NCBI RefSeq assembly: GCF_004104055.1
Contig: NZ_QOVJ01000002.1
Span: forward strand, 186,001 to 250,000
DNA: 64,000 nucleotides
Source: Leeuwenhoekiella aestuarii
GTDB taxonomy: Bacteria; Bacteroidota; Bacteroidia; Flavobacteriales; Flavobacteriaceae
Reading direction: 5' to 3'
Below, in pieces: positions 25,125 to 59,094 of this stretch (position 1 is the stretch's first letter; each line of letters begins with the position of its first letter). The notes under the pieces are model-generated. The model ran no database searches, was not told where the DNA came from, and saw nothing but the letters and a program-made list of their open reading frames with translations. The position numbers and the translations under genes were made by a program.

Positions 25125-25132
25125 TATTTTTG
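25125..25132 (+). promoter_or_regulatory. Candidate -7 box for zwf-pgl
   Basis: TATTTTTG fits TAnnTTTG and lies 120 bp before the zwf start. No clear -33 TTG is seen at the usual distance, so this is tentative. Confidence 0.3.
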
Positions 25133-25145
25133 TATTGGTTAAAGC

Positions 25146-25153
25146 CAAAATTA
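25146..25153 (-). promoter_or_regulatory. Candidate -7 box for gnd
   Basis: The minus strand reads TAATTTTG, matching TAnnTTTG, 98 bp before the gnd start. It faces the plus-strand box at 25125-25132, so the two transcripts would overlap at their 5' ends. No clear -33 element. Confidence 0.3.
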
Positions 25154-25252
25154 AATGATAACATTGACTTTTTACTGCTTTATTCTATAAACTCATGTTA
25201 TAATTGCAAATAACCAACTAACACACCATAAAACTGAAAATCATTATTTTTT

Positions 25253-26791: not shown

Positions 26792-26821
26792 ATTAATTTT
26801 TTAATTATAAAACTTCCATTG

Positions 26822-29842: not shown

Positions 29843-31480
29843 TTAACCAGTCGTATAACCCGGGTTTTGAGTTAATTCTGCTTCTTTATTCAACTGAATT
29901 TCTCTTAATGGGATAGGGAACAATTCGTGAAATTCTTGTAAACCTTCAATACGCATTGTTTGTGGTAATGGGATACTTTCATCTTGTACATTTAAGCGCG
30001 TTGCACGTTCTACAAGCATTTTAGTACGCATTAACGTCATTCTTCTATTTTCTTCTGCTAATAATTCACGTACGCGCTCATCAAGTATAAATTCAAGATC
30101 CATATCACCAGCACTTACTTGTGGAGCTTCGGCTCGAGTTCTAAGAATATTTATAGTTGTAGCTGCTCCTCCTGGATTATTTTGCATTACTTGTGCCTCT
30201 GCTTTAAGTAGATAGGTTTCACCAAGTCTCATTAGCATAAAGTCTTTCCACATACCAAAACCAAATACGTCAGCAGGGTCAAAATGTCCCCATTTTAACG
30301 TGTATGGTTGAATTCTTGCTAATGTGTCTATCCCTGTATAGGGTACTAGCTCCCCGTAGATATCAGAAAAATTAGGGTCTGGGTTATTATATCTAAAGCG
30401 TTTGTGAATGTTATATTTAGAATTACGCATATCTCCTTCATCATAAAGATCATATATTACCCAGTTATTGAGTCTTATACGCGCAATACCACGACCTCCT
30501 AATGAGTCTGCCGGGATCATTCCATTGACATTGTGGTAGCCTGCACCCCATATTCTACGTTGCTGAGGTGAACCACTAGACCCCCCACGTACATCTGCTG
30601 GATTTTCGTTTTCTAAAACCCAAAGAGCTTCGGTATTACCTTGAGAACGACGCTGGTTTCCTTTAAAGAACATATCAGAAAAGGGATCACCGGGTTCAGA
30701 AGCTTTTACTCCATAACGTTCGGTAACGAGTTGAAAAGCCTGGCTGTTAATAATAATATCTGCCTGATCTTCTGCAAGATCAGGTTGCCCTGTTCTCAAA
30801 TAAAATTCAGCAAATAATTGATTAGCAACATACTTATTAACGCGAGACTCAAATTGTGGAGCAGAGGTGGGTTCACCTAAATTTGCTGTAGCATACTGAA
30901 GATCAGTTTCAATTTGAGCATTGATTTCTTCCAGTGTATTACGGGTATAATCAAAGCGCGCCTCAGTTACCGGTTCTGTAATAAGTGGCACCCCTCCAAA
31001 AAGTGTTGCCAGATTGTTATAGGCATAGGCTCTAAAAAAGCGAGCTTCTGCATTTATAGCATTTTTCTCCTCATCAGAAAGTTCTTCTGATGTGTTAGCT
31101 TCAATACTTGCTATGATACTATTTGTATTTTCAACCATATTATACCATAATTCCCAACTTTGATAAGCGGCGCTATCATCTGTAGTAAGTTGATTGTATT
31201 TATAATATGGAACCTCAACACCATCTGGTGCTGTAGGCCAAGTAATATCTGTACCGGCTTGCCATACACAAAGCCAGCCTTGTTGACCACTACGTGTATA
31301 GAAGGTACTTAGCATTTGATATAAACCGATCAATTGTGCCTGGTATCCTAGTTCATCATTTAACGTTTCTGGAGTAAAGTCCGAACGTATTTCTTCTTCA
31401 AGAAAATCGTCACCACAAGAACTAAACACAAACAGGTTTATGCTGAGGAGTACGATTATAAGTTTAGATATATTTTTCAT
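29843..31480 (-). CDS. susD: SusD/RagB-family glycan-binding lipoprotein
   Basis: The surface lid of the SusCD glycan importer. From ATG 31480 the protein has 545 residues: lipoprotein signal MKNISKLIIVLLSINLFVFSSC followed directly by GDDFLEEE, an acidic stretch after the lipidated Cys that fits the Bacteroidota surface-export signal. TPR-like helices include NAEARFFRAYAYNNLATLFGGVPL, a conserved SusD block, and the C terminus ends NPGYTTG. An in-frame start at 31522 overlaps susC but would place 14 charged residues before the signal peptide, so it is rejected. The gap to susC is 28 bp. Confidence 0.93.
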   Translation of the reverse strand: MKNISKLIIVLLSINLFVFSSCGDDFLEEEIRSDFTPETLNDELGYQAQLIGLYQMLSTFYTRSGQQGWLCVWQAGTDITWPTAPDGVEVPYYKYNQLTTDDSAAYQSWELWYNMVENTNSIIASIEANTSEELSDEEKNAINAEARFFRAYAYNNLATLFGGVPLITEPVTEARFDYTRNTLEEINAQIETDLQYATANLGEPTSAPQFESRVNKYVANQLFAEFYLRTGQPDLAEDQADIIINSQAFQLVTERYGVKASEPGDPFSDMFFKGNQRRSQGNTEALWVLENENPADVRGGSSGSPQQRRIWGAGYHNVNGMIPADSLGGRGIARIRLNNWVIYDLYDEGDMRNSKYNIHKRFRYNNPDPNFSDIYGELVPYTGIDTLARIQPYTLKWGHFDPADVFGFGMWKDFMLMRLGETYLLKAEAQVMQNNPGGAATTINILRTRAEAPQVSAGDMDLEFILDERVRELLAEENRRMTLMRTKMLVERATRLNVQDESIPLPQTMRIEGLQEFHELFPIPLREIQLNKEAELTQNPGYTTG

Positions 31481-31508
31481 AAAGTTTATCTTTTTTCGTT
31501 TAGCGATT

Positions 31509-34493
31509 CTATAACGATACATTTAGTCCTATAGAAAATGTTCTTACCACAGGGTAATTATTGGTCCAATTTCCAGACCCTCTGTAAGACTGGTCACTTT
31601 CTGGATCCCAGCCTATCCAATCTGTCCAGGTATATAAATTTCTACCTGCCACGTAAAGCATTAAGTTTGTAAGACCAAACTTTTCGATTTTTTCAGCTGG
31701 AAATCTATAACTGAATCTAGCATCTTTAAGTCTTACATAACTCGCATCTCTAGGATAACCGTAACCCAACGTATTTCTATAAATAAGTGAAGGGAATTCA
31801 TTACTTTGATTTTCTGGTGTCCAATAACCTACCGCTGCAGGTGTATTTCTACGCGCTAATTCATCGCCATAATTGATATCAGGGTTTCCTTTTAACACTC
31901 CTTGAACGGTCTGAATAAAAAATGATAAATCAAAGTTTTTGTAAGTAAAAGTATTCGTAAGTCCACCGGTCCATTTAGGTAATGAAGTTCCTAAATAAAC
32001 ACGGTCATTTTCAGGTTCAATAACTCCATCACCATTTATATCTTCAAATTTTAAATCCCCAGGATTAGCATTAAATGAGCCCGTATCTTCACCTTCTTGC
32101 CAAACTCCTACCATATTATAGTCATAAATAGCCCCAAGCGATTTACCTATAAACCATCTACTTGGGATATCATCTTTCCCATCACCATACAAATCAATGA
32201 TTTCATTTTTATAGGTAGAGAAGTTAACGTTAGATTCCCATCTAAAATCACCAGTATCAATATTTGTAGAATTAATACTAAACTCAAAACCTCTGTTTTC
32301 TACAGCTCCAATATTTTCGATTATACTTGTTGTACCGGTTAGTGCAGGGATGCTTCTATTTAATAGTAAATCTTCAGTTCTTGATTTATAAGCTTCTAGA
32401 GAACCATTTATTCTATTATTCCACAACCCAAAATCAACACCTAAGTTACCAGATACTGTGGTTTCCCACTTTAAATTAGGATTTCCTAAACCTGCAATAA
32501 ATGTACCTGTGTACGATTGTCCTCCGAATGGATAAAGTAAAGTTCCTGCACGGGTTTGCGTTTGATTAATTCCAACCCCACGGTTACCTGTTTCTCCAAT
32601 TGAAAAACGTAGTTTTAAATTGTCAATAGCATCAGCATTTTCCATAAAGGTTTCTTTGTGAATATTCCAGCCTAAAGCAGCAGATGGGAATACACCATAT
32701 TTACTAGTGTTTGAACCAAAAGCGGAATAGCCATCTCGTCTTACGGTAACCGTAAATAAGTATTTACTATCATAGTTATAGTTTAGTCGTCCCATTTGTG
32801 AAACCAAAGTAGAACGACTACTGTATGAGCCGCCTGTAATTGTTTCTGCAGCTCCAATGTTATTAAATGATAATTGATCATTAACAAAACCAACACCAGT
32901 TAAAGACTCTCTAAAAAACTCATTTGCTTGTGCACTATATAAACCTGTAAGGTCAAAATTATGTTTACCAAAACTTTTTGAGTATTTTAAAATGTTTTCA
33001 ACAATCCAAACTTTTTCTTCATCACCACCAACGTTCGCTGTTCCTCTATTATCATTAGCCGCACGTCCAGTATAATTACGATATAGATAAGGATTAAAGG
33101 TATAGGAAGCATTTACACGATAAGAAAGTCCTTCGGCAAAAGCAGGTGTGATTTCTGCAAAAACATTCCCTGAAAGTGTACGCTCGCGCTCAACACGATC
33201 GGTTTTTAGGCCTAAAAGAGGATTTGCATATAAAAGCTCAGGGAGCATAGGATTAATGATCAATTCACCACTTTCATTATAAGGAACAGAATATGGACTC
33301 ATTGCTGTAGCTAATAATAAATTTGCACGTCCTCCATCAAAATTGTTATTAGCGAAAAATGCATTTAACCCTACTTTTAAGTAATCTGTAAGTTGTACAT
33401 CTATATTGGATCGTAATGTGAGTTTTTGATAATCATAGCCTTTTATTACGCCCTTTTGATCTAGGTAACCTCCAGAGATAAAATATTTGGTTTTTTCACT
33501 TCCTCCACGAATACTCAGATTATGTTCTTGTATGATACCACTTCTGGTAGCCACGTCAAACCAATCTGTTGTAATACCGGCATCATAATTGTCAATTTCG
33601 CTTTGATTTTCTAAGATGCGATCTTGAGTTGCTCCGGGATTATTTTGACTAAAAAAGTCTGCATATTTTTGAACATAAGCATCAGGACCTAATGGTTTTA
33701 AAACATTAGCAAATTCTTCAATAGCTCCATATGTACTATAGTTGATTACTGGGTCACCATTAACCCCGCGCTTTGTTTGAATTAAAATAACACCATTAGA
33801 TCCTCGTGTACCATAAATTGCTACTGCAGAGGCATCTTTTAAAATCTGAATAGATTTAATATCCCTCGTGTTTATATCATTTAAGGTACCTGTAAAAGGA
33901 ATACCATCCAAAACAATAAAGGGGCTTGTGCTACCGGTAATTGAGTTTATACCTCTTACTTGTATAGAACCTGTAGATCCTGGTACAGATGATCCTTGAC
34001 TTATATTAAGACCAGCCGTTGTACCTTGAATAGCTTGCGTAACATTTGTCACAGGTAAGTTCTCAAGTCTTTCTTCAGGAACAGAAGAAACAGACCCTGT
34101 TACATCAGACCTTTTCTGACTACCATACCCAACAACAACGATTTCGTCCAGAACTCCCATATTTTCTTCAAGAGAAGCGTCAAGAGTAGTTTGACCATTT
34201 ACAGGCAACTCAATCGTTTTCATTCCTACATAAGAGAAAACAAGAACGGCGTCTGAACCAACAGTAATTTCATAGTTTCCATCAAAATCTGTAGTAGTAC
34301 CATTAGAAGTTCCTTTTTCTATTACAGTAACTCCAGGTAGGGGCATATTATCTCCGGCTGTTGTAACCGTTCCGCTAATTGTTTGCTGTATTCCTGTTTT
34401 TTCACCAGCAAATCCATTAGAAGGAAAAGCAATAAGAGCAAACAAAAAGCTGCAAATCAAAATAGACTTAAAGCGTAAAATTTTTTGTCTCAT
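31509..34493 (-). CDS. susC: SusC/RagA-family TonB-dependent glycan transporter
   Basis: A 994-residue outer-membrane transporter: signal peptide (about 1-28), a carboxypeptidase-regulatory-like domain (about 38-115, ISGTVTTAGDNMPLPGVTVIEKG), the TonB-box region DEIVVVGYGSQKR, a plug domain (about 130-240, with SIQILKDASAVAIYGTRGSNGVILI) and a barrel to the C terminus. It imports oligosaccharides captured by SusD. Its promoter region carries both shared PUL motifs: the palindrome 38-60 bp and the C-run element about 100-125 bp before the ATG. Confidence 0.95.
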   Translation of the reverse strand: MRQKILRFKSILICSFLFALIAFPSNGFAGEKTGIQQTISGTVTTAGDNMPLPGVTVIEKGTSNGTTTDFDGNYEITVGSDAVLVFSYVGMKTIELPVNGQTTLDASLEENMGVLDEIVVVGYGSQKRSDVTGSVSSVPEERLENLPVTNVTQAIQGTTAGLNISQGSSVPGSTGSIQVRGINSITGSTSPFIVLDGIPFTGTLNDINTRDIKSIQILKDASAVAIYGTRGSNGVILIQTKRGVNGDPVINYSTYGAIEEFANVLKPLGPDAYVQKYADFFSQNNPGATQDRILENQSEIDNYDAGITTDWFDVATRSGIIQEHNLSIRGGSEKTKYFISGGYLDQKGVIKGYDYQKLTLRSNIDVQLTDYLKVGLNAFFANNNFDGGRANLLLATAMSPYSVPYNESGELIINPMLPELLYANPLLGLKTDRVERERTLSGNVFAEITPAFAEGLSYRVNASYTFNPYLYRNYTGRAANDNRGTANVGGDEEKVWIVENILKYSKSFGKHNFDLTGLYSAQANEFFRESLTGVGFVNDQLSFNNIGAAETITGGSYSSRSTLVSQMGRLNYNYDSKYLFTVTVRRDGYSAFGSNTSKYGVFPSAALGWNIHKETFMENADAIDNLKLRFSIGETGNRGVGINQTQTRAGTLLYPFGGQSYTGTFIAGLGNPNLKWETTVSGNLGVDFGLWNNRINGSLEAYKSRTEDLLLNRSIPALTGTTSIIENIGAVENRGFEFSINSTNIDTGDFRWESNVNFSTYKNEIIDLYGDGKDDIPSRWFIGKSLGAIYDYNMVGVWQEGEDTGSFNANPGDLKFEDINGDGVIEPENDRVYLGTSLPKWTGGLTNTFTYKNFDLSFFIQTVQGVLKGNPDINYGDELARRNTPAAVGYWTPENQSNEFPSLIYRNTLGYGYPRDASYVRLKDARFSYRFPAEKIEKFGLTNLMLYVAGRNLYTWTDWIGWDPESDQSYRGSGNWTNNYPVVRTFSIGLNVSL

Positions 34494-34530
34494 AAAATAA
34501 TTATTAGTTTAAAATTGAAACTTGTTTTCT

Positions 34531-34553
34531 ATAAATGTCAAAGGAACATTTAT
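34531..34553. promoter_or_regulatory. PUL palindrome, copy 1 (susC leader)
   Basis: ATAAATGT and ACATTTAT form a perfect 8-bp inverted repeat with a 7-nt spacer, ending 38 bp before the susC ATG. On the minus strand the spacer holds TTCCTTTG, one base away from a -7 box, so binding here could cover a promoter. Confidence 0.6.
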
Positions 34554-34591
34554 AATGCATTTCAATATTCACTATTTCTTAACATTGGGAG

Positions 34592-34618
34592 AGGGGGTAA
34601 ATCGATATTTATAGGGGG
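34592..34618 (-). promoter_or_regulatory. C-run direct repeat upstream of susC
   Basis: On the minus strand CCCCCTATAAAT (34618-34607) is followed by a second CCCCCT (34597-34592), 21 bp from the first. Two half sites two helical turns apart suit an AraC-type dimer such as the HTCS output domain. A 12-nt identical copy of the first half lies at 41455-41466. Confidence 0.45.
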
Positions 34619-34820
34619 GGTAGTCATTCAAATATTGGTAAAATAGCTTATGCCAGATATTTAAGGCGATGTCAGATATCAGTTTTTGTGATTTTTAATC
34701 GGAAAAGTTTCAACCTCGTTGTGTAGAATCGTAACAATTTTAGGGGCTCTATTGAGCAATTATCAGCTTTCACCTCAATAAAATTTCGTTTGATTAAAAA
34801 ACATCTGAATTTTTTCTATA

Positions 34821-34843
34821 ATAAATGTAAAAAGAACATTTAT
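34821..34843. promoter_or_regulatory. PUL palindrome, copy 2 (GH43 upstream)
   Basis: ATAAATGT-N7-ACATTTAT, with a spacer that differs from copy 1 at only two positions (AAAAAGA against CAAAGGA). It ends 181 bp before the GH43 ATG. Confidence 0.55.
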
Positions 34844-34925
34844 TTTTATTTTATTTGTAATTCTGATTTTCAACTTATTTACTCGATAATCGAGATTTAA
34901 ATGCTACGAGAATTGTCTTGTTCAG

Positions 34926-34964
34926 TTTAATGCTTCGCAGTTTTGCCTCGAAGTGGTTTACTAA
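34926..34964 (-). repeat. Dispersed repeat, copy 4 (GH43 upstream)
   Basis: The minus strand reads TAGTAAACCACTTCGAGGCA, then AAACTGCGAAGCATTAAAC. CTTCG and CGAAG can pair. It resembles the copies at the ends of gnd and mscS but is not attached to a stop codon. Confidence 0.4.
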
Positions 34965-35024
34965 AATCTTTATTAGCAAAATGAGAATCCTTAAGTACGA
35001 TATAATCTTCTAAACAACTTTAAA

Positions 35025-37193
35025 ATGTTAAAATCTAAATTGACACTAATTTTCAGTTTATTGTTTTCAGTTCTGTTTTTCTCCTGTGAGAAATCTGAAA
35101 ATAATGATGCTAAATCCGCTTATTTATTTGTGTATTTCACAGGTAATGGTGCTGGGGAAGAGGCTGTGCATTATGCACTAAGTAAAAATGGATATGATTA
35201 TTATGCTTTAAATAATGACAAACCTATTGTGCCTACAGACAGTATAAGTACAACAGGTGGTGTGCGAGACCCTCATATTTTAAGAGGAGAAGATGGCAAC
35301 TTTTATATGGTGCTTACCGATTTAAAAACACAAGATGGTTGGAATAATACAGGAATCATTTTAGCAAAATCAGCTGATTTAATTAATTGGGAAACCAGCA
35401 GAATTGATCTTGCTGATACGTTTTCTGAATTTGCAGATATAACCCGTGCTTGGGCTCCTCAAACAATCTACGATTCAGAAGCTGGTAAGTATATGATCTA
35501 CTTCTCTATTTTACAGCCCGGTGGTTACGACAAAGTATATTATACTTATGCAAGTAAAGATTTTACCGGTCTGGAGACAGTTCCTGAGCAGTTGTTTTAC
35601 AGTCCGGATGAAAAGTCTTGTATAGATGCTGATATCATTAAGAAAGATGATAAGTTTTATATGTTTTATAAGACTGAAGGCACAGCTACTAAGGGGATTC
35701 GGGTTGCGGTTTCTGATAGTTTGACGTCTGGTTATGTACCTGAAGAAGGGTACAAAGATCAAACAGATAGAGCGGTTGAAGGTTCGTCTGTTTTTAAAAT
35801 GATTGACAGCGATACGTATATTTTACTTTATGATATGTATATAGACGGTAAATATCAATTTGCAAAGAGTACAGATCTATTAAACTTTAAAGCATTAGGC
35901 GCAGACAAGATTTCGATGAATTTTCATCCACGTCACGGTACTATTATTCCTGTTACTCAAACAGAAGCAACTTCTTTATTAAAAGCATTTCCATCAGATA
36001 ATTTGCCATTGATCGTGGGGGCTAAAGGCACTGCGATTCGTAAACAAAATATAGTAGTTAACTCAGAAGAAGCATCAGTTTACTTACCCATTTATACAGA
36101 TAGTAGTTTGACTGATTTAGATCCAGAGTTGGTGACTTTTCCCGGTGTTTCAGTTGTAGAAAATGGTCCTAAAGATTTCTCTGTTGGAGCAAATACTTAT
36201 ACTCTCAGATTACCAGACGGAAATCAAAAAACGTATACAGTAGAAGCGGAGGTTGCAAATAATCCTGTTTTAGATGGTTTTTATGCAGATCCTGAGATTA
36301 TTTATTCCGAAAAGGAAAAGAAGTTTTACTTGTATCCCACAAGTGATGGTTTTGACGGTTGGAGCGGTACTTTTTTTAAAACTTTTTCTTCAGAAGATTT
36401 AGTTCATTGGAAGGATGAAGGAGTTATTGTAGACCTTCTTAAAGATGTTTCATGGGCAAACCGAAATGCATGGGCACCTTGTATAGCAGAAAAGAAAATT
36501 GATGGAGCATATAAATACTTCTATTACTTTTCTGCAGCACAAAATATAGGTTTAGCTACTGCAGACAATCCCGCAGGACCTTTTACTGACAGTGGTCAAG
36601 CTTTTGTAGGGGAGAAGCCAAATGCTATCAAGCGCGGTGGTGGCCAGATTATAGATCCTGATGTTTTTATAGATCCGCAGAGCGGAAAGGGCTATTTTTA
36701 TTGGGGGAATGGGTATATGGCTGGTGCTGAGCTTAATGAAGATATGATGTCGTATAAAGAGGAAACTTTAAAAGAGCTTACGCCAGATGGAACGTATAGA
36801 GAAGGAACCGAAGTTTTCTTTAGAAACGGTACGTATTATTTTATGTGGTCTGAAGATGATACAAGAAGTCCTAATTATCGCGTACGCTATGCAACGGCTG
36901 AAACACCGTTAGGGCCATTAACTATCCCGGAAGAGAACCTAGTGATCAAAAGAGATGATGACACAGAGATCTACGGAACGGGTCATAATTCAGTAATTAA
37001 CGTGCCGGGCACCGATGACTGGTATATCGTTTACCACCGTTTTACACGTCCAAGAGGGATTAAAATGGGTGGTCCGGCAGGATTTCACAGAGAGGTGTGT
37101 ATAGATAAGCTCACCTTTGGAGAAGATGGAAGCATACTAGAAGTAACACCTACTACTTCAGGTATTGCCCCAGTTACAATTTCAGCAAAATAA
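35025..37193 (+). CDS. Two-domain GH43-type glycoside hydrolase lipoprotein
   Basis: A 722-residue lipoprotein (lipobox LFFSC, Cys21) with two five-bladed GH43-like domains. The first (about 30-330) shows candidate catalytic residues Asp82 (GGVRDPHIL), Asp near 200 (CIDADIIKK) and Glu near 251 (AVEGSSVF). A short beta domain (about 340-415) resembles a cadherin/Ig-like insert. The second (about 415-715) shows FYADPEIIY, IIDPDVFID and YREGTEVFF. Both triads look complete. GH43 enzymes remove arabinose, xylose or galactose units; GH43 subfamilies 24 and 34 act on galactan or arabinogalactan, but the subfamily was not determined here. Divergent from susC. Confidence 0.88.
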   Translation: MLKSKLTLIFSLLFSVLFFSCEKSENNDAKSAYLFVYFTGNGAGEEAVHYALSKNGYDYYALNNDKPIVPTDSISTTGGVRDPHILRGEDGNFYMVLTDLKTQDGWNNTGIILAKSADLINWETSRIDLADTFSEFADITRAWAPQTIYDSEAGKYMIYFSILQPGGYDKVYYTYASKDFTGLETVPEQLFYSPDEKSCIDADIIKKDDKFYMFYKTEGTATKGIRVAVSDSLTSGYVPEEGYKDQTDRAVEGSSVFKMIDSDTYILLYDMYIDGKYQFAKSTDLLNFKALGADKISMNFHPRHGTIIPVTQTEATSLLKAFPSDNLPLIVGAKGTAIRKQNIVVNSEEASVYLPIYTDSSLTDLDPELVTFPGVSVVENGPKDFSVGANTYTLRLPDGNQKTYTVEAEVANNPVLDGFYADPEIIYSEKEKKFYLYPTSDGFDGWSGTFFKTFSSEDLVHWKDEGVIVDLLKDVSWANRNAWAPCIAEKKIDGAYKYFYYFSAAQNIGLATADNPAGPFTDSGQAFVGEKPNAIKRGGGQIIDPDVFIDPQSGKGYFYWGNGYMAGAELNEDMMSYKEETLKELTPDGTYREGTEVFFRNGTYYFMWSEDDTRSPNYRVRYATAETPLGPLTIPEENLVIKRDDDTEIYGTGHNSVINVPGTDDWYIVYHRFTRPRGIKMGGPAGFHREVCIDKLTFGEDGSILEVTPTTSGIAPVTISAK

Positions 37194-37247
37194 TCTCAAA
37201 TTTTAAAGGCTAAAACCTCTTTGAGCAAGTGCTCAACGAAGGTTAAT

Positions 37248-37280
37248 AAAAAAGGTTCGTTGTTAAAACGAACCTTTTTT
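37248..37280. terminator. Bidirectional terminator between GH43 and HTCS genes
   Basis: AAAAAAGGTTCGTT (37248-37261) pairs perfectly with AACGAACCTTTTTT (37267-37280) around a 5-nt loop. Confidence 0.85.
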
Positions 37281-37281
37281 A

Positions 37282-40200
37282 TTAACTAGGTTTGAATGCA
37301 GATGGCGGTTTACCATACTTTTCTTTAAAGATTTTTCTGAAATATTTTGCATCACCAAAACCAACTTCATAAGCCGCCTGCGAAATGGTAAATTTTTCTT
37401 TTTCGATCAAATATGCTGCGTGTTCAATTTTGATATTTCTAATATATTCATTGATGTTCTGGCCGGTAATTGCTTTGATTTTTCTGTAAAGTGAAGACCT
37501 GCTCATTCCTATTTTTTCTGAAACTACTTCCACAGTCTTAATGCCTTGTTGCATATTTTGGTGAACGATCTCATGAAATTCTGTTAAGAACTGTTTTTCA
37601 ATATCTAATAATTTCTTTTGTTCACTGTCAGTATCAGATAGGTCAGCGTTTGCAAAGCGACTTAGGAGTTTAGCCCGGCTCTCAATAAGATTGGCAACTC
37701 GTGCTTTAAGTACCTGCACATTAAAAGGTTTCAGCATATAATCATCTGCACCTTCAGAGTAACCGGTCTCTATCATCTCAAAGTTGCTTTTAGCAGACAA
37801 TAGGATTATGGGAATATGCGAGGTCTCTTTCTTATTCTTGATAAAGTTACAAAGGTCAATTCCGTTTTTGACTGGCATCATAATATCGCTGATAATTAAA
37901 TCAGGTATATAGCTTGTGGCTTTATCGATACCTTCTTCACCATCTTCTGCGTGTATGAGATCGTATTCCTGAGCTAGAGCGCTATCTAAAAATTCTAGAA
38001 TATCTGGGTTGTCATCGATGAGTAAAATAAGCTTACGTTTATTTTCAGGTGAAGCAAGAATATTCTGAACTTCATCTTTTTCAGGAGTTAACGTATTAGC
38101 ATTAATCTGCTGCTCAATAAGTCTTTTATTGTCTAACGGATAATTATTGTCGGTAAGATATTCATCCAGTAGTCTTTCATCTTTGGAGATTTGTAAAATA
38201 AATACACTTCCTTTTCCTTCTTTGCTGGTAACTTTTAAAACACCTTTGTGCAACTCAGCAAATCGTTTAGAAAGCGCAAGACCTATACCGCTTCCGTCTT
38301 TTTTAACTGAAGTGTTAGATTGATAATACCATTCAAATATGTGATCAAGATCCTGCGTTTTAATTCCACTTCCGTTATCGCTAACCTTAAAAATGAGATA
38401 GTCTTCATCTTGCCCGAGTTCTACATGAATTTTTTCGCCTTTAGGGCTGTATTTTATAGCGTTAGATATCAAGTTATTTACAATAACCTGAACCTTCTCC
38501 AGATCACAGTAAACCCGTAATGGAGTTTGAGGCATTGTGATCATCAATTCAAGTTCTTTTTTCTTTAAAAGCGGGTCGTAGCCTGCTAGCCAATTAGTCA
38601 AATTTTTAGAGAAATTGTATTTATTAATTTGCAGTTTACTCAAGCCTTCTTCACTTTTTCTAAACTCAAGCAGTTTGTTTATAAACTGCAAAAGATTGTC
38701 TGCATTACGCTTGATCAGTTTTAGATTTTTAAGGTGTTGCTTGTGTACCGTTTCTTGTAAAAGTGTTTCTAAAGGCGCAAGAATAAGTGTCAACGGTGTT
38801 TTGAGCTCATGAGAAAATCCCGTGTAAAACCGAATACGTTCTTCGTTTAGTTCGTGCTCGAGTCTGCGTTGTTTCTTTTCAAAGAGCAGTGAGTTTTTAA
38901 GATATATACGCTCAGAATAATATTTAAGCCCACTAATTATTAAAACGAAAAAGATCCCGAAATAGACAAAATAAGCTGGTAATGTCTTCCAGATAGGAGG
39001 GAGTACAGCGATTTGCAATTCTTTGTAAAGTGGTAAGTCTGCTAAGCTTTGTGCTTTGATTTTAAGCGTATAATCACCTGGCGGAATATTACTGAAATTG
39101 ATTCTGTTTGAATTTTTAAGATCTATCCAATGTTCATTAAAACCTTCAAGTATGTATGAATAGCTGGTGTTGTCAGCAAATGGAAAATTTAGGCTTGTAA
39201 ACTCTATTGAAAAAACGGTCTTATCTGAATCTAACGAGATAGAATCTTCATAGAGCATAGACTTCTGTAATACGGCGTCCTTATCTTCAGGGTTGATGGT
39301 TACAGATTCATTGAAAACCAATAAATCTTTAATAATTATTGCGCGTTCTTGTGTTTGAGAAGAAAGATCGTTAGGATTAAATGCATTGAGACCTTTATTG
39401 CTCCCAAAATACAACAGACCTGACCTTGATTTTAAAACTGCCCCGGGATTGTATTCGCTTTTTTGAATATTGTTCAGATTATTAAGACTAGTGACCTCTT
39501 GACTTTTTATATTGTACTTACTAACCCCTTTAAATGTTCCTAAACAGACCGTATTTGCATCAAAAGCTACAAGACTATTTATTGTATTGTTACTTAGACC
39601 ATCTTGTTCATCCAGATTAAGTGCTTCTGTCGCTCCGGGTTTAAACAATACAAGCCCTACGTGTTTAGTTCCGGCAAGAATATTACCATCAGGTAATACC
39701 AAAACACTAAAGATTACATTGCTCTTTAAGCCATTTAAGTTTAGCGCCTGATAATATGTACTATTATCGTTGGGTATATTGTAATTGATGATACCATCAC
39801 CATATGTACCGAGCCATAAATTACCTGATGCATCTTCTGCAATTGCCCGTACATCTATTTTGTTTAAAGATTCAATATATTCAAATTGATCTTTAGTTTC
39901 AGAATATCTAAAAAGTCCGCCACGATTAGTTCCAGCCCAGATTTCCCCTTTTTTAGTTTTGTAAAGGACGCGTACATCGTTACCATCTTTCTGAGTTCCT
40001 TGTAAATAATACTTCCACTTTTTAGTTTTCTTGTCGTAAACATTAACTCCTCCCAGATAGGTGCCAACCCATAGTTTCTCATTATCTATAATTATAGAAA
40101 AAACGTGGTCTGTTTTGAGTCCGTTTGCTTCGGTTAAAACATCATAATCAAACTTATTTGTTTTGGGGTCATAGCAATCAACACCGCCACCATCTGTACC

Positions 40201-41412
40201 CAGCCAGATTCGTGAATCCGTATCTTCTGCTAATGCATTTATTCTATTGTGGATTATATGTTCTGACCCGGTTAATGAATTGGTAATGATCTGTACCGGT
40301 TCTCCACGAGGGTTTACATAATTGATTCCACCATAAGTTCCCAACCACATATTGCCAGATCGGTCTTTTTTTATTGAAAAAATAGTAGCATTATAAACAC
40401 TTGTTCCATCTTCTTTAGGAAGGTATTTTTCTATTTTAAAGCGTGCATCAGCTTGAAAATTAGATTTTTCAATAATATTTAAACCCCCATCATATGTGCC
40501 AACCCATATCCTGCCAAATTCATCTTCTTCAAAACATGTAACATCATTCCCCGATAGTCCAGCATCTGAATTTTGCCGGGTAATAGTTAAAACTTTATTC
40601 ACTTTGGTGATTATTTTGACCCCTTCATTTGTACCTACCCACAGGTTTTGATCACTATCTACCAAGAGGCTGTTTACTCTAAAATCAGATTTGTTGTTGA
40701 GCGGTATGCGGGTTACTTGTTTTTTCTGAATATCAAGCTTGTTGAGCCCGGCATCTTGTGTTCCAATCCAAACAATAGAATCTTTTTGGATGGTTATAGC
40801 GCTGATTTTATTTGAAGATAAAGAATGACCATTTAATGGATCGTGTTCATATAGATCAATCTGTTTCTTGTTTTTCAGTACTCGCAAGCCTACACTATAA
40901 TCACCCATATAAAATTCTCCAGACTTACGGTAGGTTATGGTATTTACACTATTAGAAAGGACGATGTCTTGGGGTTTATAGCGCTCAAATGTATTCAGAT
41001 ACGGATTGTAAGCGTGCAATCCACCATCATTGCCTATAAGTAAATTTCCGGTTATAGTATCGAGTAAGATGTTTTGTAAATAGTTATCAGAAATAGCAGA
41101 ATTCTCCTTTCTGTACACTGTAAATTCATTACCGTCGTATCTGTTAATTCCGTCTGCAGTTCCTATCCAGATAAAGCCCAGTTCATCTTGCTCAATAACA
41201 CGAACCATATTGTTAGAAAGGCCATCTTCGGTGTCAAGTTTATAAAAGTTAAGTTTTTTGGGTTTTAGGATTTTATCAGAATTTTTTTGGGCAGATACTT
41301 CAAGAACAAAAAATATAGATATAAGACTTAGTGGTATAAATCCTTTGAATCTAAAAATCTGACTGATAAATTTTAAAAAATAAACAAATGGTTTTATCTG
41401 TATCTGACGCAT
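37282..41412 (-). CDS. Hybrid two-component system (HTCS) regulator of the PUL
   Basis: A 1376-residue inner-membrane sensor/regulator that joins histidine kinase and response regulator in one chain. Order: N-terminal hydrophobic signal/anchor (about 20-42), two periplasmic Reg_prop propellers (about 55-690, repeats of the form IWIGTADGINRYDG and LWVGTYLGGVNVYD), a Y_Y_Y domain (about 710-790), a membrane segment near 815-832, HisKA with the phosphoacceptor in GFSHELKTPL (about 869), HATPase (SDNGSGIKTQDL, GSGIGLALSK), a receiver (ILLIDDNP; phosphorylated Asp in LIISDIMMP, about 1174; Lys in YMLKPFN) and a C-terminal AraC-type DNA-binding domain (about 1280-1370). It lies between susC-susD/GH43 and the main enzyme operon. 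It should bind an oligosaccharide product in the periplasm and activate the locus. Confidence 0.96.
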   Translation of the reverse strand: MRQIQIKPFVYFLKFISQIFRFKGFIPLSLISIFFVLEVSAQKNSDKILKPKKLNFYKLDTEDGLSNNMVRVIEQDELGFIWIGTADGINRYDGNEFTVYRKENSAISDNYLQNILLDTITGNLLIGNDGGLHAYNPYLNTFERYKPQDIVLSNSVNTITYRKSGEFYMGDYSVGLRVLKNKKQIDLYEHDPLNGHSLSSNKISAITIQKDSIVWIGTQDAGLNKLDIQKKQVTRIPLNNKSDFRVNSLLVDSDQNLWVGTNEGVKIITKVNKVLTITRQNSDAGLSGNDVTCFEEDEFGRIWVGTYDGGLNIIEKSNFQADARFKIEKYLPKEDGTSVYNATIFSIKKDRSGNMWLGTYGGINYVNPRGEPVQIITNSLTGSEHIIHNRINALAEDTDSRIWLGTDGGGVDCYDPKTNKFDYDVLTEANGLKTDHVFSIIIDNEKLWVGTYLGGVNVYDKKTKKWKYYLQGTQKDGNDVRVLYKTKKGEIWAGTNRGGLFRYSETKDQFEYIESLNKIDVRAIAEDASGNLWLGTYGDGIINYNIPNDNSTYYQALNLNGLKSNVIFSVLVLPDGNILAGTKHVGLVLFKPGATEALNLDEQDGLSNNTINSLVAFDANTVCLGTFKGVSKYNIKSQEVTSLNNLNNIQKSEYNPGAVLKSRSGLLYFGSNKGLNAFNPNDLSSQTQERAIIIKDLLVFNESVTINPEDKDAVLQKSMLYEDSISLDSDKTVFSIEFTSLNFPFADNTSYSYILEGFNEHWIDLKNSNRINFSNIPPGDYTLKIKAQSLADLPLYKELQIAVLPPIWKTLPAYFVYFGIFFVLIISGLKYYSERIYLKNSLLFEKKQRRLEHELNEERIRFYTGFSHELKTPLTLILAPLETLLQETVHKQHLKNLKLIKRNADNLLQFINKLLEFRKSEEGLSKLQINKYNFSKNLTNWLAGYDPLLKKKELELMITMPQTPLRVYCDLEKVQVIVNNLISNAIKYSPKGEKIHVELGQDEDYLIFKVSDNGSGIKTQDLDHIFEWYYQSNTSVKKDGSGIGLALSKRFAELHKGVLKVTSKEGKGSVFILQISKDERLLDEYLTDNNYPLDNKRLIEQQINANTLTPEKDEVQNILASPENKRKLILLIDDNPDILEFLDSALAQEYDLIHAEDGEEGIDKATSYIPDLIISDIMMPVKNGIDLCNFIKNKKETSHIPIILLSAKSNFEMIETGYSEGADDYMLKPFNVQVLKARVANLIESRAKLLSRFANADLSDTDSEQKKLLDIEKQFLTEFHEIVHQNMQQGIKTVEVVSEKIGMSRSSLYRKIKAITGQNINEYIRNIKIEHAAYLIEKEKFTISQAAYEVGFGDAKYFRKIFKEKYGKPPSAFKPS

Positions 41413-41454
41413 AAAATTTAAAAATTATCATTTAATAAGGAGCTGAACGTTGTA

Positions 41455-41482
41455 CCCCCTATAAATTGTCAATTCATACCCT
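41455..41482 (+). promoter_or_regulatory. C-run element upstream of the BNR/GH2 operon
   Basis: CCCCCTATAAAT (41455-41466) is identical over 12 nt to the element upstream of susC and has the same orientation relative to the gene it precedes. A second CCCT half site lies at 41479-41482, 22 bp on. The element is 43 bp before the divergent HTCS start and 238-249 bp before the BNR gene. Confidence 0.45.
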
Positions 41483-41670
41483 GTTAGAGCATAAGTTTTT
41501 TAAGAGTATTGTAACAGCAATGTAATTTACTATTCCGATTTCGTAAAACGGTACTGTAATTCTTTTTATCGATATAACACCTCATTTCAATGGCCTTTGC
41601 TCGCTTATCGTTTTAAAAAGGTTATTTAACTAAAAGAACTAACTGAAGTTTCTAAATATATAAAAATATT

Positions 41671-41693
41671 ATAAATGTTTTTTATACATTTAT
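41671..41693. promoter_or_regulatory. PUL palindrome, copy 3 (BNR/GH2 operon leader)
   Basis: ATAAATGT-N7-ACATTTAT with the same arms and spacer length as the two copies near susC; here the spacer is TTTTTAT. It ends only 10 bp before the ATG at 41704, so it lies in the leader or over the start region. Confidence 0.6.
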
Positions 41694-41703
41694 AAATCTA
41701 ACT

Positions 41704-43035
41704 ATGAAATCAATTATTTTAAGATTATCTGCGCTATTTCTCTTGACAGTATTTTTACATAGCTGCACTTCAAGTAAAACAGTTACATCGATTCAAAAAA
41801 CTACAATAGGGCCGGGTTGGGCAAATAATTCTATCAATACGGTCATATTTCGTCAAAATGCCGTAACAACGCATGATAATGTTCAATTTGCAGCTTACTA
41901 CGATGCAAAATCCTATTTGACACTTGCCAAGAGAATACTTCCTGATGGAGAATGGGAGGTACATCAAACCCAATATACCGGAAATACTGCAGACGCGCAT
42001 AATGCGATAAGTATCGCTGTTGATGGCAAAGGCTATTTACACGTAAGTTGGGATCACCATAATAATCCGCTGCGGTATGCACGTAGTCTAAAACCTTTAG
42101 GTCTGGAGCTAGGCGAAAAACAAAAAATGTCTGGGATAGAGGAAGCAAGAGTAACGTATCCACAGTTTTATAATCTTGTTAATACTGAAAAATTACTGTA
42201 CTTATACCGGTCTGGTGAATCTGGAGAGGGAATATTAGTAGTTAATAAATACAATCCTCAAACTCAAGAATGGACACAACTTTATCAAAATCTAATAGAT
42301 GGAGAAGGGGAGCGCAATGCGTATTGGCAAGCTTATGTAGATAAGCAAGGAACAATACATCTTTCTTGGGTATGGCGTGAGACCTATGACGTATCTACAA
42401 ATCACGACATAGCTTATGCAAAATCTACAGATGAAGGAAAAACCTGGACGCGTTCTAATGGAGAAGCCTATCAATTACCTATCACGCAAGAAACAGCAGA
42501 GTATGCATGGAAAATTCCTCAAAATAGCAGTTTGATCAATCAAACTTCAATGACTACTGATGCTTTTGGAAATCCATATATCGCAAACTATTGGAATGTA
42601 GGTGGAAAAACCCAATATCAAATTGTTTATCTCGAAGATGGTATTTGGAAAAAAGAAAACTCAAACTTTCGAGACTCTGTTTTTAAGTTAGGTGGCGGAG
42701 GTACAAAAAAAATACCAATAAGCAGACCCGAAATATTTGTTCAAAATGAAGGAAATAAGAAGACGGTTTATTTGCTTTATAGAGATGACCTGCGGGGAAG
42801 TAAAATCACGATGGCCTATAAAAATTTAGCTTCTCAAAATGATTGGAAACTTTTAGATCTGACTGATATAAGTGTTGGAGACTGGGAACCCAATTTTGAT
42901 AAGCAGTTATTTAAACAAACCGGAAAAGTACACATATTTCAGCAAGAGGTTACTCAGGTTGATGGTGAAGGCTTGACCAACACCAAGGCGACGCCTGTTC
43001 AACTTTTAGAATTAGACACGTTACCCTTAAACTAA
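41704..43035 (+). CDS. BNR_4-type seven-bladed propeller lipoprotein, putative glycan lyase or hydrolase
   Basis: A 443-residue lipoprotein (lipobox FLHSC, Cys21). The core has the block HNAISIAVDGKGYLHVSWDHHNNPLRYARS, also QAYVDKQGTIHLSWVWRE and STDEGKTWTRS, which matches BNR_4 family proteins. Relatives include uronate lyases of PL24/PL25 and the rhamnosidase/glucuronate-linked family GH145, all propellers with catalytic His residues. The His pair in SWDHH and the preceding HNAIS are candidates for the active site. Which activity applies is not decided by sequence. First gene of the main enzyme operon; the GH105 enzyme downstream would use the unsaturated uronate made by a lyase. Confidence 0.72.
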   Translation: MKSIILRLSALFLLTVFLHSCTSSKTVTSIQKTTIGPGWANNSINTVIFRQNAVTTHDNVQFAAYYDAKSYLTLAKRILPDGEWEVHQTQYTGNTADAHNAISIAVDGKGYLHVSWDHHNNPLRYARSLKPLGLELGEKQKMSGIEEARVTYPQFYNLVNTEKLLYLYRSGESGEGILVVNKYNPQTQEWTQLYQNLIDGEGERNAYWQAYVDKQGTIHLSWVWRETYDVSTNHDIAYAKSTDEGKTWTRSNGEAYQLPITQETAEYAWKIPQNSSLINQTSMTTDAFGNPYIANYWNVGGKTQYQIVYLEDGIWKKENSNFRDSVFKLGGGGTKKIPISRPEIFVQNEGNKKTVYLLYRDDLRGSKITMAYKNLASQNDWKLLDLTDISVGDWEPNFDKQLFKQTGKVHIFQQEVTQVDGEGLTNTKATPVQLLELDTLPLN

Positions 43036-43065: not shown

Positions 43066-46173
<3,108 letters not shown>

Positions 46174-46183
46174 TCGTTTTTAG

Positions 46184-48145
46184 ATGAAAATTATAAGCTT
46201 AAAAAATATTGCTCAGGCATTTATTTTTATCACTGTACCATTGGTCTGGAGTCAAGCTTCGGTTGTTAAGGTGACCAGTCCAGATGAAGGTTTGGTTGTT
46301 CAACTTAAGCTAAAGGACAGTAAGGTTTTTTATTCTGTAGAACTTGATGGTGAATCTTTTTTGGAAGATTCACCATTAGGTTTAATGACTTCGAAAGGAG
46401 ATTTCACAAAAGGACTTACTTTTGAAAACTCAGATATAAAACGAATTTCTGATTCGTATACTTTGACAAACGCTAAAGTGAGTAAGGTGACTTATATAGC
46501 AAATGAGCTTGTAGCAAATTTCACCAATGCTAAGAAAGACACTTTAACAATAGTTTTTAGTTTACAAGATAACGATTTCGCTTTCTCATACAGGTTAATT
46601 GGTAAAGACCTGAATACTAAAGTTAAAATTTTATCTGAAGCTACAGGATTTAATTTACCAGATGATGCGACGTCTTTTATTACGCATCAAGCTTTACCGC
46701 TAACAGGTTGGGAAGAAACTAAACCATCTTACGAAGAAGAATATACTTTTGACGAAAAATTAGGAACACCGTCACAATATGGTGTAGGTTATACATTCCC
46801 TGCGTTGTTTAAAAATGCAGAGAAGGGATGGATTTTAATTTCTGAAACCGGAGTTGACGGCAGTTATCCCGGTTCGCGTCTTGGAGAATCTAATGCAGAC
46901 GGACTATTCCCAATACAATTTCCTCAGGAAGGTGAGAACAACGGGATAGGAGATACGTATGCAGCCATGGCAATGCCTGTTCAAACACCCTGGCGTACAA
47001 TTACATTGGGTAAGACGCTAAAACCTATAGTTGAAACAACTGTAGCATTTGATCTGGTTACACCAAAATATGAACCTACAGTAGATTATAAGACGGGTAG
47101 ATCTACCTGGAGCTGGATTGTATGGCAGGACGATAGCATAAACTACGAAGATCAATTGAAGTTCATTGAGCTCTCTGCAGCGCTTAATTTTGAGTATATC
47201 CTTATCGATAATTGGTGGGACGCGCGTATAGGGAGAGATAGAATGGAAGAATTGGTAGCTTATGCCCGTTCTAAAAATGTTTCGGTACTGTTGTGGTACA
47301 ACTCAAACGGCTATTGGAGCAATGCTCCGCAAACCCCACAGGATTTAATGAATACCGCTTATAAGCGCCAGCGCGAAATGGCCTGGATGCAAAAAATAGG
47401 CGTTAAAGGAATAAAGGTAGACTTCTTTGGAGGAGATAAGCAAATCACCATGCAGCTCTATGAAGATATTCTCAATGATGCTAATAATTACGGTTTAGGA
47501 GTGGTTTTTCACGGCTGTACCCTACCTCGCGGATGGGAACGTATGTATCCTAATTATATGTCTTCAGAAGCGGTGCTGGCTTCAGAAAATTTGATTTTCA
47601 CTCAGGATGCTTCAGATAAACACGCTTTTAAAAGTACTATCCTTCCGTTTGTAAGAAATGCAGTTGGTGCAATGGATTTTGGCCCGGTGTTTCTTAATAA
47701 ACGTCTTACTAAAGATCAAACAGGAGGATCTTTGCGCAAAACAACCGAAGCCTTTGAGTTAGCAACCGGCGTCCTGTATTTTTCGCCTATTCAGCACTTT
47801 GGCTTAACACCAAATAATCTGGTGGAGCAACCTGAATTTGTGCTTGATTTTTTGAGAACAGTTCCTGCGGTTTGGGATGAAACGCTTTACATAGGCGGAG
47901 AACCCGGAGATTATTCTGCAATTGCGAGAAGAAAAGATGATAAATGGTATTTGGCCATAACTAATGGAGAACAAAAGGATAAAACGTTAAAGCTTGAACT
48001 TCCTATGTTGAAAAACAAAGAAGTGACTCTTATTTATGACGCAAAAGATCGTTCTGCAGCAACTAAAACGGTAAAAATAAAAAAGAACGGAACATTTAAT
48101 ATCGATGTTTTGGGAGAAGGTGGTGCGCTACTTATCTCGCAATAA
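46184..48145 (+). CDS. GH97 alpha-glycoside hydrolase, probable retaining alpha-galactosidase
   Basis: A 653-residue exported enzyme (signal about 1-24, ending WSQA) with the N-terminal beta-sandwich (about 27-270) and TIM barrel (about 290-570) of GH97. The segment GVKGIKVDFFGGD (Asp near 411) has an Asp where the retaining alpha-galactosidase group of the family has its nucleophile; the inverting SusB-type alpha-glucosidases lack it. Glu residues in SSEAVLASENL (about 460-467) fit the acid/base. Starts 10 bp after the GH2 gene. Confidence 0.87.
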   Translation: MKIISLKNIAQAFIFITVPLVWSQASVVKVTSPDEGLVVQLKLKDSKVFYSVELDGESFLEDSPLGLMTSKGDFTKGLTFENSDIKRISDSYTLTNAKVSKVTYIANELVANFTNAKKDTLTIVFSLQDNDFAFSYRLIGKDLNTKVKILSEATGFNLPDDATSFITHQALPLTGWEETKPSYEEEYTFDEKLGTPSQYGVGYTFPALFKNAEKGWILISETGVDGSYPGSRLGESNADGLFPIQFPQEGENNGIGDTYAAMAMPVQTPWRTITLGKTLKPIVETTVAFDLVTPKYEPTVDYKTGRSTWSWIVWQDDSINYEDQLKFIELSAALNFEYILIDNWWDARIGRDRMEELVAYARSKNVSVLLWYNSNGYWSNAPQTPQDLMNTAYKRQREMAWMQKIGVKGIKVDFFGGDKQITMQLYEDILNDANNYGLGVVFHGCTLPRGWERMYPNYMSSEAVLASENLIFTQDASDKHAFKSTILPFVRNAVGAMDFGPVFLNKRLTKDQTGGSLRKTTEAFELATGVLYFSPIQHFGLTPNNLVEQPEFVLDFLRTVPAVWDETLYIGGEPGDYSAIARRKDDKWYLAITNGEQKDKTLKLELPMLKNKEVTLIYDAKDRSAATKTVKIKKNGTFNIDVLGEGGALLISQ

Positions 48146-48170: not shown

Positions 48171-51100
48171 ATGAAATCTTCAAACCACATACTATTCATT
48201 ATTCTAATATTTTCAGGGTTTCTGGTTGTGGGATGTAAAGAAAAGCAATCTTTATTTTTGGAGAGATCAATAGCAGATACAAGGTTAGATTTTGAAAATA
48301 TCCTAGTAGAAACTCCAGACTATAACGTTTTGACTTATGAATACTTTTACAATGGAGCAGGAGTAGGTGTAGGTGATTTAAATGGTGACGGCTTAGCTGA
48401 TGTGTATCTCTCAGGAAACCAAGTTGAAAATAAACTGTTTCTTAATAAAGGTGATTTTAAATTTCAAGATATCACCCAAAAAGCTGGAATTGAAGAAAAA
48501 GAGGGTTGGAAAACGGGTGTAAGTATAGTAGATGTTAATGGAGACGGACTATTAGATATTTATTTATCCTATTCGGGAAATGCTCCCGGAGAATCTGTTA
48601 CAACCCCTGTGCGTAAAGATTATCAAGGTCGTACAAATCAATTATTCATCAATACAGGCAACTCTTCTGAAGGTATTCCGGTTTTTGAAGAAAAGGCTCA
48701 GGAATATGGACTCTCGGCTGTTGGGACTTTCAGTACGCAGGCTTATTTTTTAGATTACGATCTAGATGGTGATTTGGATATGTTTCTTCTTAATCACGCC
48801 AATAAATTTTACAATACCTTATTTAATGTCGGTGTACTTAGAAAGAAACGCCATCCCTATTATGGCAATAAATTTTTCAAAAACAACAATAATCTTTTTG
48901 AAGAAGTTTCTGAGGAAACCGGGATTATAGGTTCAGGTGTAAATTTTGGGTTAAGTGCTGCTATAAGTGATCTCAATCAAGATGGCTACCCTGATATTTA
49001 TGTAACCAATGATTATGAGGAGCAAGATTTTTTATACTTAAATAACGGTGATGGAACTTTTAAGGAAGTAACGAAAACTGTGTTTAGTCACTTGTCTAAT
49101 TTTGGAATGGGTTCTGATATTGCAGACATCAACAACGACGGATTGCAAGATATTTTTGTGGCTGATATGTGGCCAGAAGATAATTATAGGCAAAAAGCGC
49201 TAAAAGGTCCCGATCAATACAATAGATATCAGCGTCTTATAGATAGTGGTTATCATTATCAGTATATGCGCAACACGTTACAATTGAACAGAGGACTTTC
49301 TCCTAAAGATTCAATTTTACGGTTTAGTGAGGTTGGGCAACTATTTGGTGTTTCAAATACAGACTGGAGTTGGGCACCTTTACTGGCAGATTATGACAAC
49401 GACGGTCGTAAAGATTTATTCATAACCAATGGTTTTTTAAGAGATTTCAGCAATCTCGATTTTCTGAATTATACTGTTAATAATGCTGTTCAAAAAGCAC
49501 AGGATAATCAACAAGCAATAGATTTACCGAAGCTTATAAGTGAGATGCCTGCAACCAAGGTAGCTAATTATGCTTATCAGAATACCGGAAGTCTACGATT
49601 TAAAGATGTTACACAAGAATGGGGTTTTTCGCAAAAAACGGTTTCTAATGCTGCTGCTTATGCAGATTTTGATAATGATGGAGATTTGGATCTTATTATA
49701 AATAATCTAAATCAGCCGGTTCTGGTTTATGAAAATACTGCTCAAAATGAAAAGAATAATTTCATAAAAATCAAACTTGAGGGGAATACTAAAAATACGC
49801 AAGCACTAGGGGCTAAAGTTTATGTCAATTTAGAGAATGGGACTTCTATTTTTCAGGAAGCGTATTACGGTAGAGGATATCAATCTTCAGTAGAATCCAT
49901 TATGACTATTGGTATAGGGGAAGCTGAGCGTATTAAAAACTTACAAGTCATTTGGCCTTCTAAGACGGTTACAGAATTAGATAATCTTGATGTTAACCAA
50001 ACGCTAACTCTTTCAGAGAATGATGCCAAGAATTCTTTAATATTTGAACTCATTCCGAAAGACCAATTGCTTACTGATATTACCCAAGATTCTCAGCTAA
50101 ATTTTAAGCATACTGAGAATGATTATGTCGATTTTAATAGCGAAAGTTTAATTCCCTATCAACTTTCAAAAATGGGAGGTAAGGCAAGTGTTGCTGATGT
50201 CAATGCAGACGGTAATGATGACGTTTACCTGGAAGGAGCACGAGGACAAACCGGTTTTTTATATTTAGGTACAGACACCGGAACTTTAGAAGAGCACAAT
50301 ATAAATCAGCCCTGGACAAGTACTTTAGATAGTTCGCAAGAAGATACTGCCTCTTTGTTTTTTGATGCAGATGGAGACCAGGATTTAGATTTATACATCG
50401 TAAGCGGCGGAAATGAGAAGTTTAATGGTGATGCCTATTATCAAGACCGTTTATATATCAATGACGGAAAGGGATCGTTTCGCAAAGCGGAAAATAGCCT
50501 CCCGGATATGAAGTTTAGTGGAGGTGTTATTACAGCTTCAGATTTTGATAAAGATGGAGACGTTGATCTTTTTGTAGGTGGGCGCTTGAACGCAAATAGT
50601 TATCCCCTTATTCCTCGAAGCACGATTTTGCTTAATGATGGTAAGGGAAATTTTTCAGCATTAAGAAATTTTGATCTTGAAAAAGTAGGAATGCTTACTG
50701 ACGCTGTCTGGGAAGATATTAATGCGGATTCCTGGCCAGATCTAGTACTTGTTGGTGAGTGGATGCCTGTCACAATTTTTATAAACACAAACGGAATACT
50801 TAAAGATCAAACAAAAGCTTATGGTTTAGCCGATTCAAATGGCTGGTGGTTAACCATAAAATCTCACGACATTGATGGTGATGGGGATACTGATTTTTTA
50901 TTGGGGAATCTAGGAGCAAATACCCCTTTTACGGCTTCGGTTACAGAACCTATGCGTTACTACGTTCAGGATATAGATAATAACGGTCGTATAGACCCTA
51001 TTTTGACGCATTATATCAATGGAGTAAGTTACCCCGTTCCTGGCAGAGATGAACTATTAGGGCAAGTCCCGGTTTTGAAGAAATACTATAAAACTTACGA

Positions 51101-55671: not shown

Positions 55672-59094
<3,423 letters not shown>

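Follow-up and report, generated by a model that had tools for sequence, protein, structure and literature searches.

The locus

A glycan-degradation locus of Leeuwenhoekiella aestuarii, lying in a 64,000-nucleotide stretch of contig NZ_QOVJ01000002.1 (positions 186,001 to 250,000; hereafter the window), carries three copies of a 23-bp palindrome, ATAAATGT-N7-ACATTTAT, in front of its transcription units (Table 1). One copy precedes the susC gene of a SusC/SusD pair, one precedes a gene of glycoside hydrolase (GH) family 43, and one precedes a plus-strand operon opened by a BNR_4 protein. The gene of a hybrid two-component system (HTCS) lies between the copies; its product has an intact SHIP motif and is presumably a separate activator. 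The BNR_4 protein, taken here to be GH145-like, matches the solved structures 4irt, 5muk, 5mum and 5mvh at E 8e-130 or better; its matches to L-rhamnose-α-1,4-D-glucuronate lyases are weaker (E 4e-37 or better). Together with the GH43, GH16 and uronyl hydrolase genes, these matches suggest an arabinogalactan-type substrate.

Table 1. Genes and predicted regulatory elements of the locus, in window coordinates.
Feature	Position	Strand or location	Basis
SusD-like lipoprotein; overlaps susC end, presumably same operon	29843..31522	-	Pfam
SusC-like TonB-dependent receptor, predicted target	31509..34493	-	Pfam
AraR-type operator 1 (predicted)	34531..34553	37 bp before susC (minus strand; ATG 34493)	exact palindrome; matrix 17.1; arms kept in G144, spacer changed
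Candidate HTCS-type G-rich direct repeat, susC/GH43 intergenic	34592..34622	+	AGGGGG repeats 21 bp apart; weak lead
AraR-type operator 2 (predicted)	34821..34843	181 bp before GH43 gene (ATG 35025)	exact palindrome; matrix 21.7
GH43-family protein, predicted target	35025..37193	+	Pfam; best solved relative 3qz4, E 5e-112
HTCS: Reg_prop, Y_Y_Y, HisKA, HATPase, receiver, AraC-type HTH	37282..41412	-	Pfam
Similar G-rich direct repeat, HTCS/BNR_4 intergenic	41453..41482	-	AGGG repeats 22 bp apart; weak lead
AraR-type operator 3 (predicted)	41671..41693	10 bp before BNR_4 (GH145-like) gene (ATG 41704)	exact palindrome; matrix 23.1
BNR_4 protein, GH145-like, opens plus-strand operon, predicted target	41704..43035	+	Pfam
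GH2, beta-galactosidase-like	43066..46173	+	Pfam
GH97	46184..48145	+	Pfam
FG-GAP / UnbV_ASPIC repeat protein	48171..51551	+	Pfam
GH16	51551..52441	+	Pfam
GH88-family protein, unsaturated uronyl hydrolase type	52438..53625	+	Pfam
DUF2264 protein	53632..55671	+	Pfam
Second GH2	55936..59094	+	Pfam

The palindrome is rare and precisely repeated. An initial annotation, made from the letters of the window, had described three copies with identical arms and a 7-nt spacer and had noticed no further one, and a new pattern search returns exactly these three. Allowing up to 3 mismatches adds just two further window sites, each at 3 mismatches. Markov models of order 1 to order 3 predict 0.8e-4 to 1.4e-4 exact copies per 64 kb, so the annotation was right to call the recurrence far beyond chance (about 1e-4 expected). 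Among 8-bp inverted repeats with spacers of 0-20 in the window, no other arm/spacer pair is seen three times, and in 60 order-2 simulations every complex-arm pair occurs at most once. The two shortest distances to a start codon, given earlier as 38 and 10 bp, measure 37 and 10 bp.

The whole genome holds four exact copies. The fourth (C1:1114349-1114371) lies on another contig, 51 bp upstream of a lipoprotein gene that is followed by a GH43 gene; the GH43 label is that of the second gene, the lipoprotein gene having only a weak GH32-N match (E 1.2e-5), and no solved relative of the lipoprotein was found. Each of the four copies precedes a glycan-degradation gene or operon, and the scatter over many unrelated loci that the annotation had named as damaging to its proposal is not what the genome contains. 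The R-degenerate form gives no hit in the reversed-pattern control in this genome. At 3 mismatches the whole-genome count is no higher than in the reversed control (110 vs 105), and informative copies are therefore the exact or near-exact ones only.

Conservation upstream of susC had been proposed as a check, and the palindrome is kept before the susC, GH43 and BNR_4 genes of Leeuwenhoekiella polynyae (G144), the only same-genus genome in the sample. All four sites retain their 16 arm bases there. Three of the spacers differ (e.g. CAAAGGA to CAATATG), while the fourth site has an identical spacer and adjoins a near-identical gene; the two intergenic alignments between the species have mean column identities of 74% and 68%.

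A proposed AraR-like regulator

Judged from sequence, the three palindromes are very probably operators of an AraR-like repressor of the NrtR family encoded on contig C3. The genome encodes three proteins with the NrtR winged helix (on C3, C9 and C22). The C3 protein scores above cut-off for PF00293, PF21906 and PF19368, combining a Nudix effector domain with an NrtR/AraR winged helix, and matches the structure of Bacteroides thetaiotaomicron AraR (BtAraR; 5bs6) at E 1.4e-70. Its gene is divergent to a GH51-type (arabinofuranosidase-type) gene cluster, beyond which lie genes for an FGGY kinase (araB), a class II aldolase (araD), an SSF symporter, araA and an aldose epimerase (mutarotase). In the numbering of BtAraR, the C3 protein retains the ligand hydrogen-bond residues R34, R86 and H131, six of seven hydrophobic ligand residues (Y5, F36, G47, G48, F49 and F129) and the DNA contacts K179, R180 and N181.

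The BtAraR (BT0354) regulon is the closest known parallel. BtAraR also joins a Nudix domain to a winged helix, its gene is linked to araB, araD, araA and arabinofuranosidase genes, and its RTGT-N7-ACAY operators also occur at loci equipped with an HTCS of their own, upstream of SusC and GH genes. The BtAraR oligonucleotides hold AGTGT-AAAAAAG-ACACT and AGTGT-TACTTTT-ACACC, i.e. GTGT-N7-ACAC (PMC4666351), the same geometry as the window palindromes. The protein is a repressor released by L-arabinose and acts beside the HTCS BT0366 (PMC5061871); AraR sites overlap HTCS-controlled loci in Bacteroides, and AraR is reported from 17 species of Bacteroides and 15 of Prevotella (PMC4666351, published in 2015). 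The systems differ in that the half-sites of the window locus are ATGT and those of B. thetaiotaomicron GTGT, and in that the L. aestuarii araR-like gene lies apart from araB, divergent to the GH51 operon, with a GH145/GH43/GH2-rich target locus.

XylR (BT0791) and other NrtR-family sugar regulators of Bacteroidetes have the same domain make-up, and the C9 and C22 paralogues are such proteins. The C9 paralogue also keeps R34, R86 and H131, but not F36, G48 or F129, and the recognition helices carry K179P (C9) and R180P (C22). The genome's only exact AAACGT-N7-ACGTTT (C9:102263-102281) lies 12 bp before the start codon of the C9 paralogue, with the 7-bp geometry of the window sites and another half-site. 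On the short contig C22 (59-3703), the NrtR-family gene is divergent from genes for an FGGY kinase and a xylose-isomerase-like protein, probably a XylR-type unit.

The motif in relatives and in the genome

The RTGT-N7-ACAY motif marks araR promoters across the relatives. It is present within 400 bp upstream of the gene in 73 of 80 araR loci, the best 80 of 170 related loci (two have less than 400 bp). These promoters hold 95 sites with a 7-bp spacer against 38 over eleven other spacings (range 2-13), 14 of the latter at spacing 5 and 11 at spacing 9; a 400-bp stretch inside each araR gene holds none with the 7-bp spacer. Upstream of 30 fetched araR-like loci (400 bp), 34 N7 sites are found against 6 at nine other spacings, and 25 loci have at least one N7 site; one of the misses, L047, is a wrong-frame extraction that is meaningless in the tree as well. 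When the window is scanned with a matrix of 86 araR-promoter sites, none of them from Leeuwenhoekiella, just three hits reach 12 bits, and these are the palindromes themselves (23.1, 21.7 and 17.1); the matrix gives the B. thetaiotaomicron sites 15.3 (araM) and 19.0 (BT0365).

Among 199 Flavobacteriaceae genomes, the R-degenerate 23-mer occurs at 36 places in 18 genomes (the reversed control has 5 places). An AraR-like protein of at least 64% identity is encoded in 25 genomes, and 13 of the 18 belong to that group (Fisher p 4e-10); the cut was chosen after a gap between 64% and 57% had been seen. These 13 genomes contribute 28 places, of which all but one adjoin araB, araR, transketolase, SusC or symporter genes or genes of GH or GH-like proteins, the flanking genes being assigned by Pfam for representatives and by eye for the others. 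Eight are the four window-type sites of L. aestuarii and L. polynyae, and others lie at araB (6), araR (4), transketolase (3) and GH97 (2) genes; the rest are single cases at GH43, sodium:solute symporter, SusC/esterase and GH51/alpha-galactosidase genes and at a protein without a Pfam match. The other five genomes account for 8 places: two in coding frames, one more than 600 bp from any gene, one abutting small unrelated genes, and four (in G061 and G115) near GH31, transketolase and two other genes. In one relative (G154), the exact ATAAATGT-N7-ACATTTAT stands 57 bp upstream of the araR gene.

Palindromes also precede transketolase genes in G134, G061, G196 and G117 (loci L094, L102, L099 and L100; L099 and L102 named by eye), which connects the pentose phosphate pathway with the presumed arabinose regulon. 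In another genus (G040, L131, 8278-11900), an araR-like gene adjoins a SusC gene and is itself about 1.4 kb from a GH145-like gene, and an N7 site lies about 40 bp before susC. GH145 loci of other genera (15 stretches, 14 genomes), a biased set in which one stretch was chosen because of an exact site and another contains an araR gene, hold 7 N7 sites that match at least 5 of the 8 flanking bases, all intergenic, against 5 sites at other spacings, of which 2 are intergenic.

Within the L. aestuarii genome, sites at C3:350377 and C3:358497 stand before the GH51/araR genes and before araB. The broader pattern AARTGT-N7-ACAYTT has 14 exact places: the four palindrome copies, two at the ara cluster, three near uronate/pectin-type genes, one inside a coding frame, and one each at GH43, GH97 (adjoining a Reg_prop, HTCS-like gene), GH39 and GH31 genes. 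Allowing one mismatch gives 89 places against 115 for the control, and weight is therefore placed only on exact or matrix-scored sites. The uronate-type places (C10:45581, 49638 and 70700) read AAATGT-N7-ACATTT and lie near kduI-like and other uronate/pectin-type genes. The kduI-like and oxidoreductase genes, the SusC starts and some araB and transketolase copies were named by eye from the sequence rather than by hidden Markov model (HMM), and these names are presumptive.

Position relative to promoters

Bacteroidetes promoters follow a -7/-33 consensus. All five araB sites examined (those of L. aestuarii, G143, G049, G196 and G117; seven are known) are followed by a perfect TAnnTTTG that begins 36-37 bp past the start of the site, so that the araB site would cover the -33 region. 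At operator 2, the -7-like TTTATTTG (5 of 6 consensus bases, shared with G144) lies at +29, 6 bp downstream of the site. Operator 3 contains the -7-like TACATTTA, also with 5 of 6 consensus bases and shared with its G144 counterpart, and would thus sit on the -7 box. These predicted positions over core promoters fit a repressor, and the overlap would explain why the sites lie too near the start codons for an activator.

Weighing the assignment

Several observations weigh against an AraR-like repressor as the owner of the palindromes. The C3 protein carries K184N, K204R and R205K, at three of the six DNA-contact positions reported invariant among AraR orthologues, which weighs against strict BtAraR orthology and not against membership of the NrtR family; its hydrophobic ligand residue V92 is replaced by T. 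The C9 paralogue scores slightly higher than the C3 protein against BtAraR (257.7 vs 240.8 bits), and in the tree BtAraR falls on the C9/C22 side of a 98/99 branch, apart from the flavobacterial clade of the C3 protein. Strict orthology to BtAraR is consequently not supported; the C3 protein is named AraR-like for this reason, and the assignment rests on gene context and putative operators. The ATGT/ATGT class to which the window sites belong makes up just 3 of 94 araR-promoter sites, and the matrix test is not fully blind because its training sites were preselected by the RTGT-N7-ACAY core. At susC, a search for the -7 box gave nothing consistent. The GH145-locus sites fall in 5 of 14 genomes, some not before an obvious target. 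The effect of such a repressor may be modest: in B. thetaiotaomicron, loss of araR raises the arabinogalactan susC about 1.5-fold and leaves arabinan-locus mRNA unchanged on glucose or arabinose, altering only its timing after a shift (PMC5061871).

The initial annotation had set the palindrome apart from the HTCS site, as either a repressor operator or an mRNA leader element, and had pointed to a LacI- or GntR-type regulator. The repressor operator gains support from a nameable AraR-like regulator and the match to AraR operator geometry, and the regulator that emerges is of the NrtR family instead. Ownership by another cytoplasmic regulator, such as a uronate-responsive LacI or GntR protein, is unlikely. 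It would draw on the glucuronate that arabinogalactan can also carry, on the rarity of the ATGT/ATGT class in araR promoters, and on the 19-bp core AAATGT-N7-ACATTT shared by the three C10 sites, whose matrix scores (14.8-18.9) overlap those of the window (17.1-23.1), so that the matrix gives no clean separation or exclusion. Yet the outer bases of the C10 sites (TTAA or TAAA at the start, TTAA at the end) differ from the ATAA...TTAT of the window, the exact palindrome stands before an araR gene in G154, and no regulator gene was identified by HMM in the C10 stretches.

Binding by the HTCS encoded between the copies is very improbable, even though the three copies flank its gene. HTCS sites do control loci of this kind, but the 16 motifs reconstructed in Bacteroides are direct repeats with a spacing of about 21 bp (PMC3878776), whereas the palindrome has inverted arms separated by 7 bp; the fourth exact copy lies on another contig, and the motif recurs at araR and araB in other genera. 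Motif geometry and off-locus copies thus reject the HTCS as owner and bear out the earlier separation of the palindrome from the HTCS site. The G-rich direct repeats starting at 34592 and 41453 are separate candidates for that site; their spacings vary between copies (20 to 22 bp), which makes them a weak lead only. The susC/GH43 region of the congener also has one G-rich direct repeat. Least credible is a hairpin in the 5' leader of the mRNA: two copies do lie close to start codons, and single-strand folds reach -5 to -7 kcal/mol (z -1.5 to -2.9), but no Rfam match is found over 34300-42000, and at araB the -7 box comes after the site, which is therefore probably not transcribed. Sense-strand pairing is not preserved in relatives, the variable position forming an A-C mismatch in 20 and a G-U pair in 38 of 94 araR-promoter sites, and this part of the earlier proposal is rejected. 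A Crp-like motif known from Bacteroides, TATGTTnTAnAACATA (PMC3878776), also precedes sugar genes and is likewise an AT-rich palindrome built on ATGT and ACAT halves, but has 6 bp between the halves in place of 7, and only 2 N6 sites against 95 N7 sites occur upstream of araR; a Crp-like global motif is rejected on this spacing, no search for a Crp-type gene having been made.

Neighbouring genes

The large FG-GAP/UnbV_ASPIC protein (48171-51551) is odd company for the glycoside hydrolases of its operon. A few kb from the locus, at 23636-27532, lie genes for 6-phosphogluconate dehydrogenase, glucose-6-phosphate dehydrogenase and phosphogluconolactonase.

A possible two-signal gate for a marine glycan locus

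Under control by the AraR-like repressor, a dimer would occupy each site when L-arabinose is absent, one subunit per RTGT half with 7 bp between the halves, and would shut off susCD, the GH43 gene and the GH145-led operon by blocking the core promoters that the sites overlap. Arabinose in the cytoplasm would release it. The HTCS of the locus might act as a separate activator sensing a periplasmic sugar, making a two-signal gate. In a Maribacter proteome (PMC11036162), the arabinose operon reaches its highest level on arabinose and is also present during growth on arabinogalactan or galactose.

Joint control by HTCS and AraR is already published for B. thetaiotaomicron; what is new here is the clade, the altered contact residues and the ATGT half-sites. 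A search made mostly without subscription literature, and therefore no proof of absence, returned no flavobacterial study of an AraR regulon of the NrtR type. Marine Flavobacteriaceae could, more tentatively, possess a distinct AraR-like branch whose changed recognition helix reads both ATGT and GTGT, with ATGT/ATGT as a separate affinity class for polysaccharide loci. If so, the ara genes and the arabinogalactan-type locus would open at different arabinose levels.

From sequence alone, the analysis names a regulator that can be tested at a marine glycan locus, and the RTGT-N7-ACAY motif can be used to map AraR-type regulons across the family. It suggests that the scheme of gut Bacteroides, an HTCS activator paired with a monosaccharide-sensing repressor, may operate in marine flavobacteria as well.

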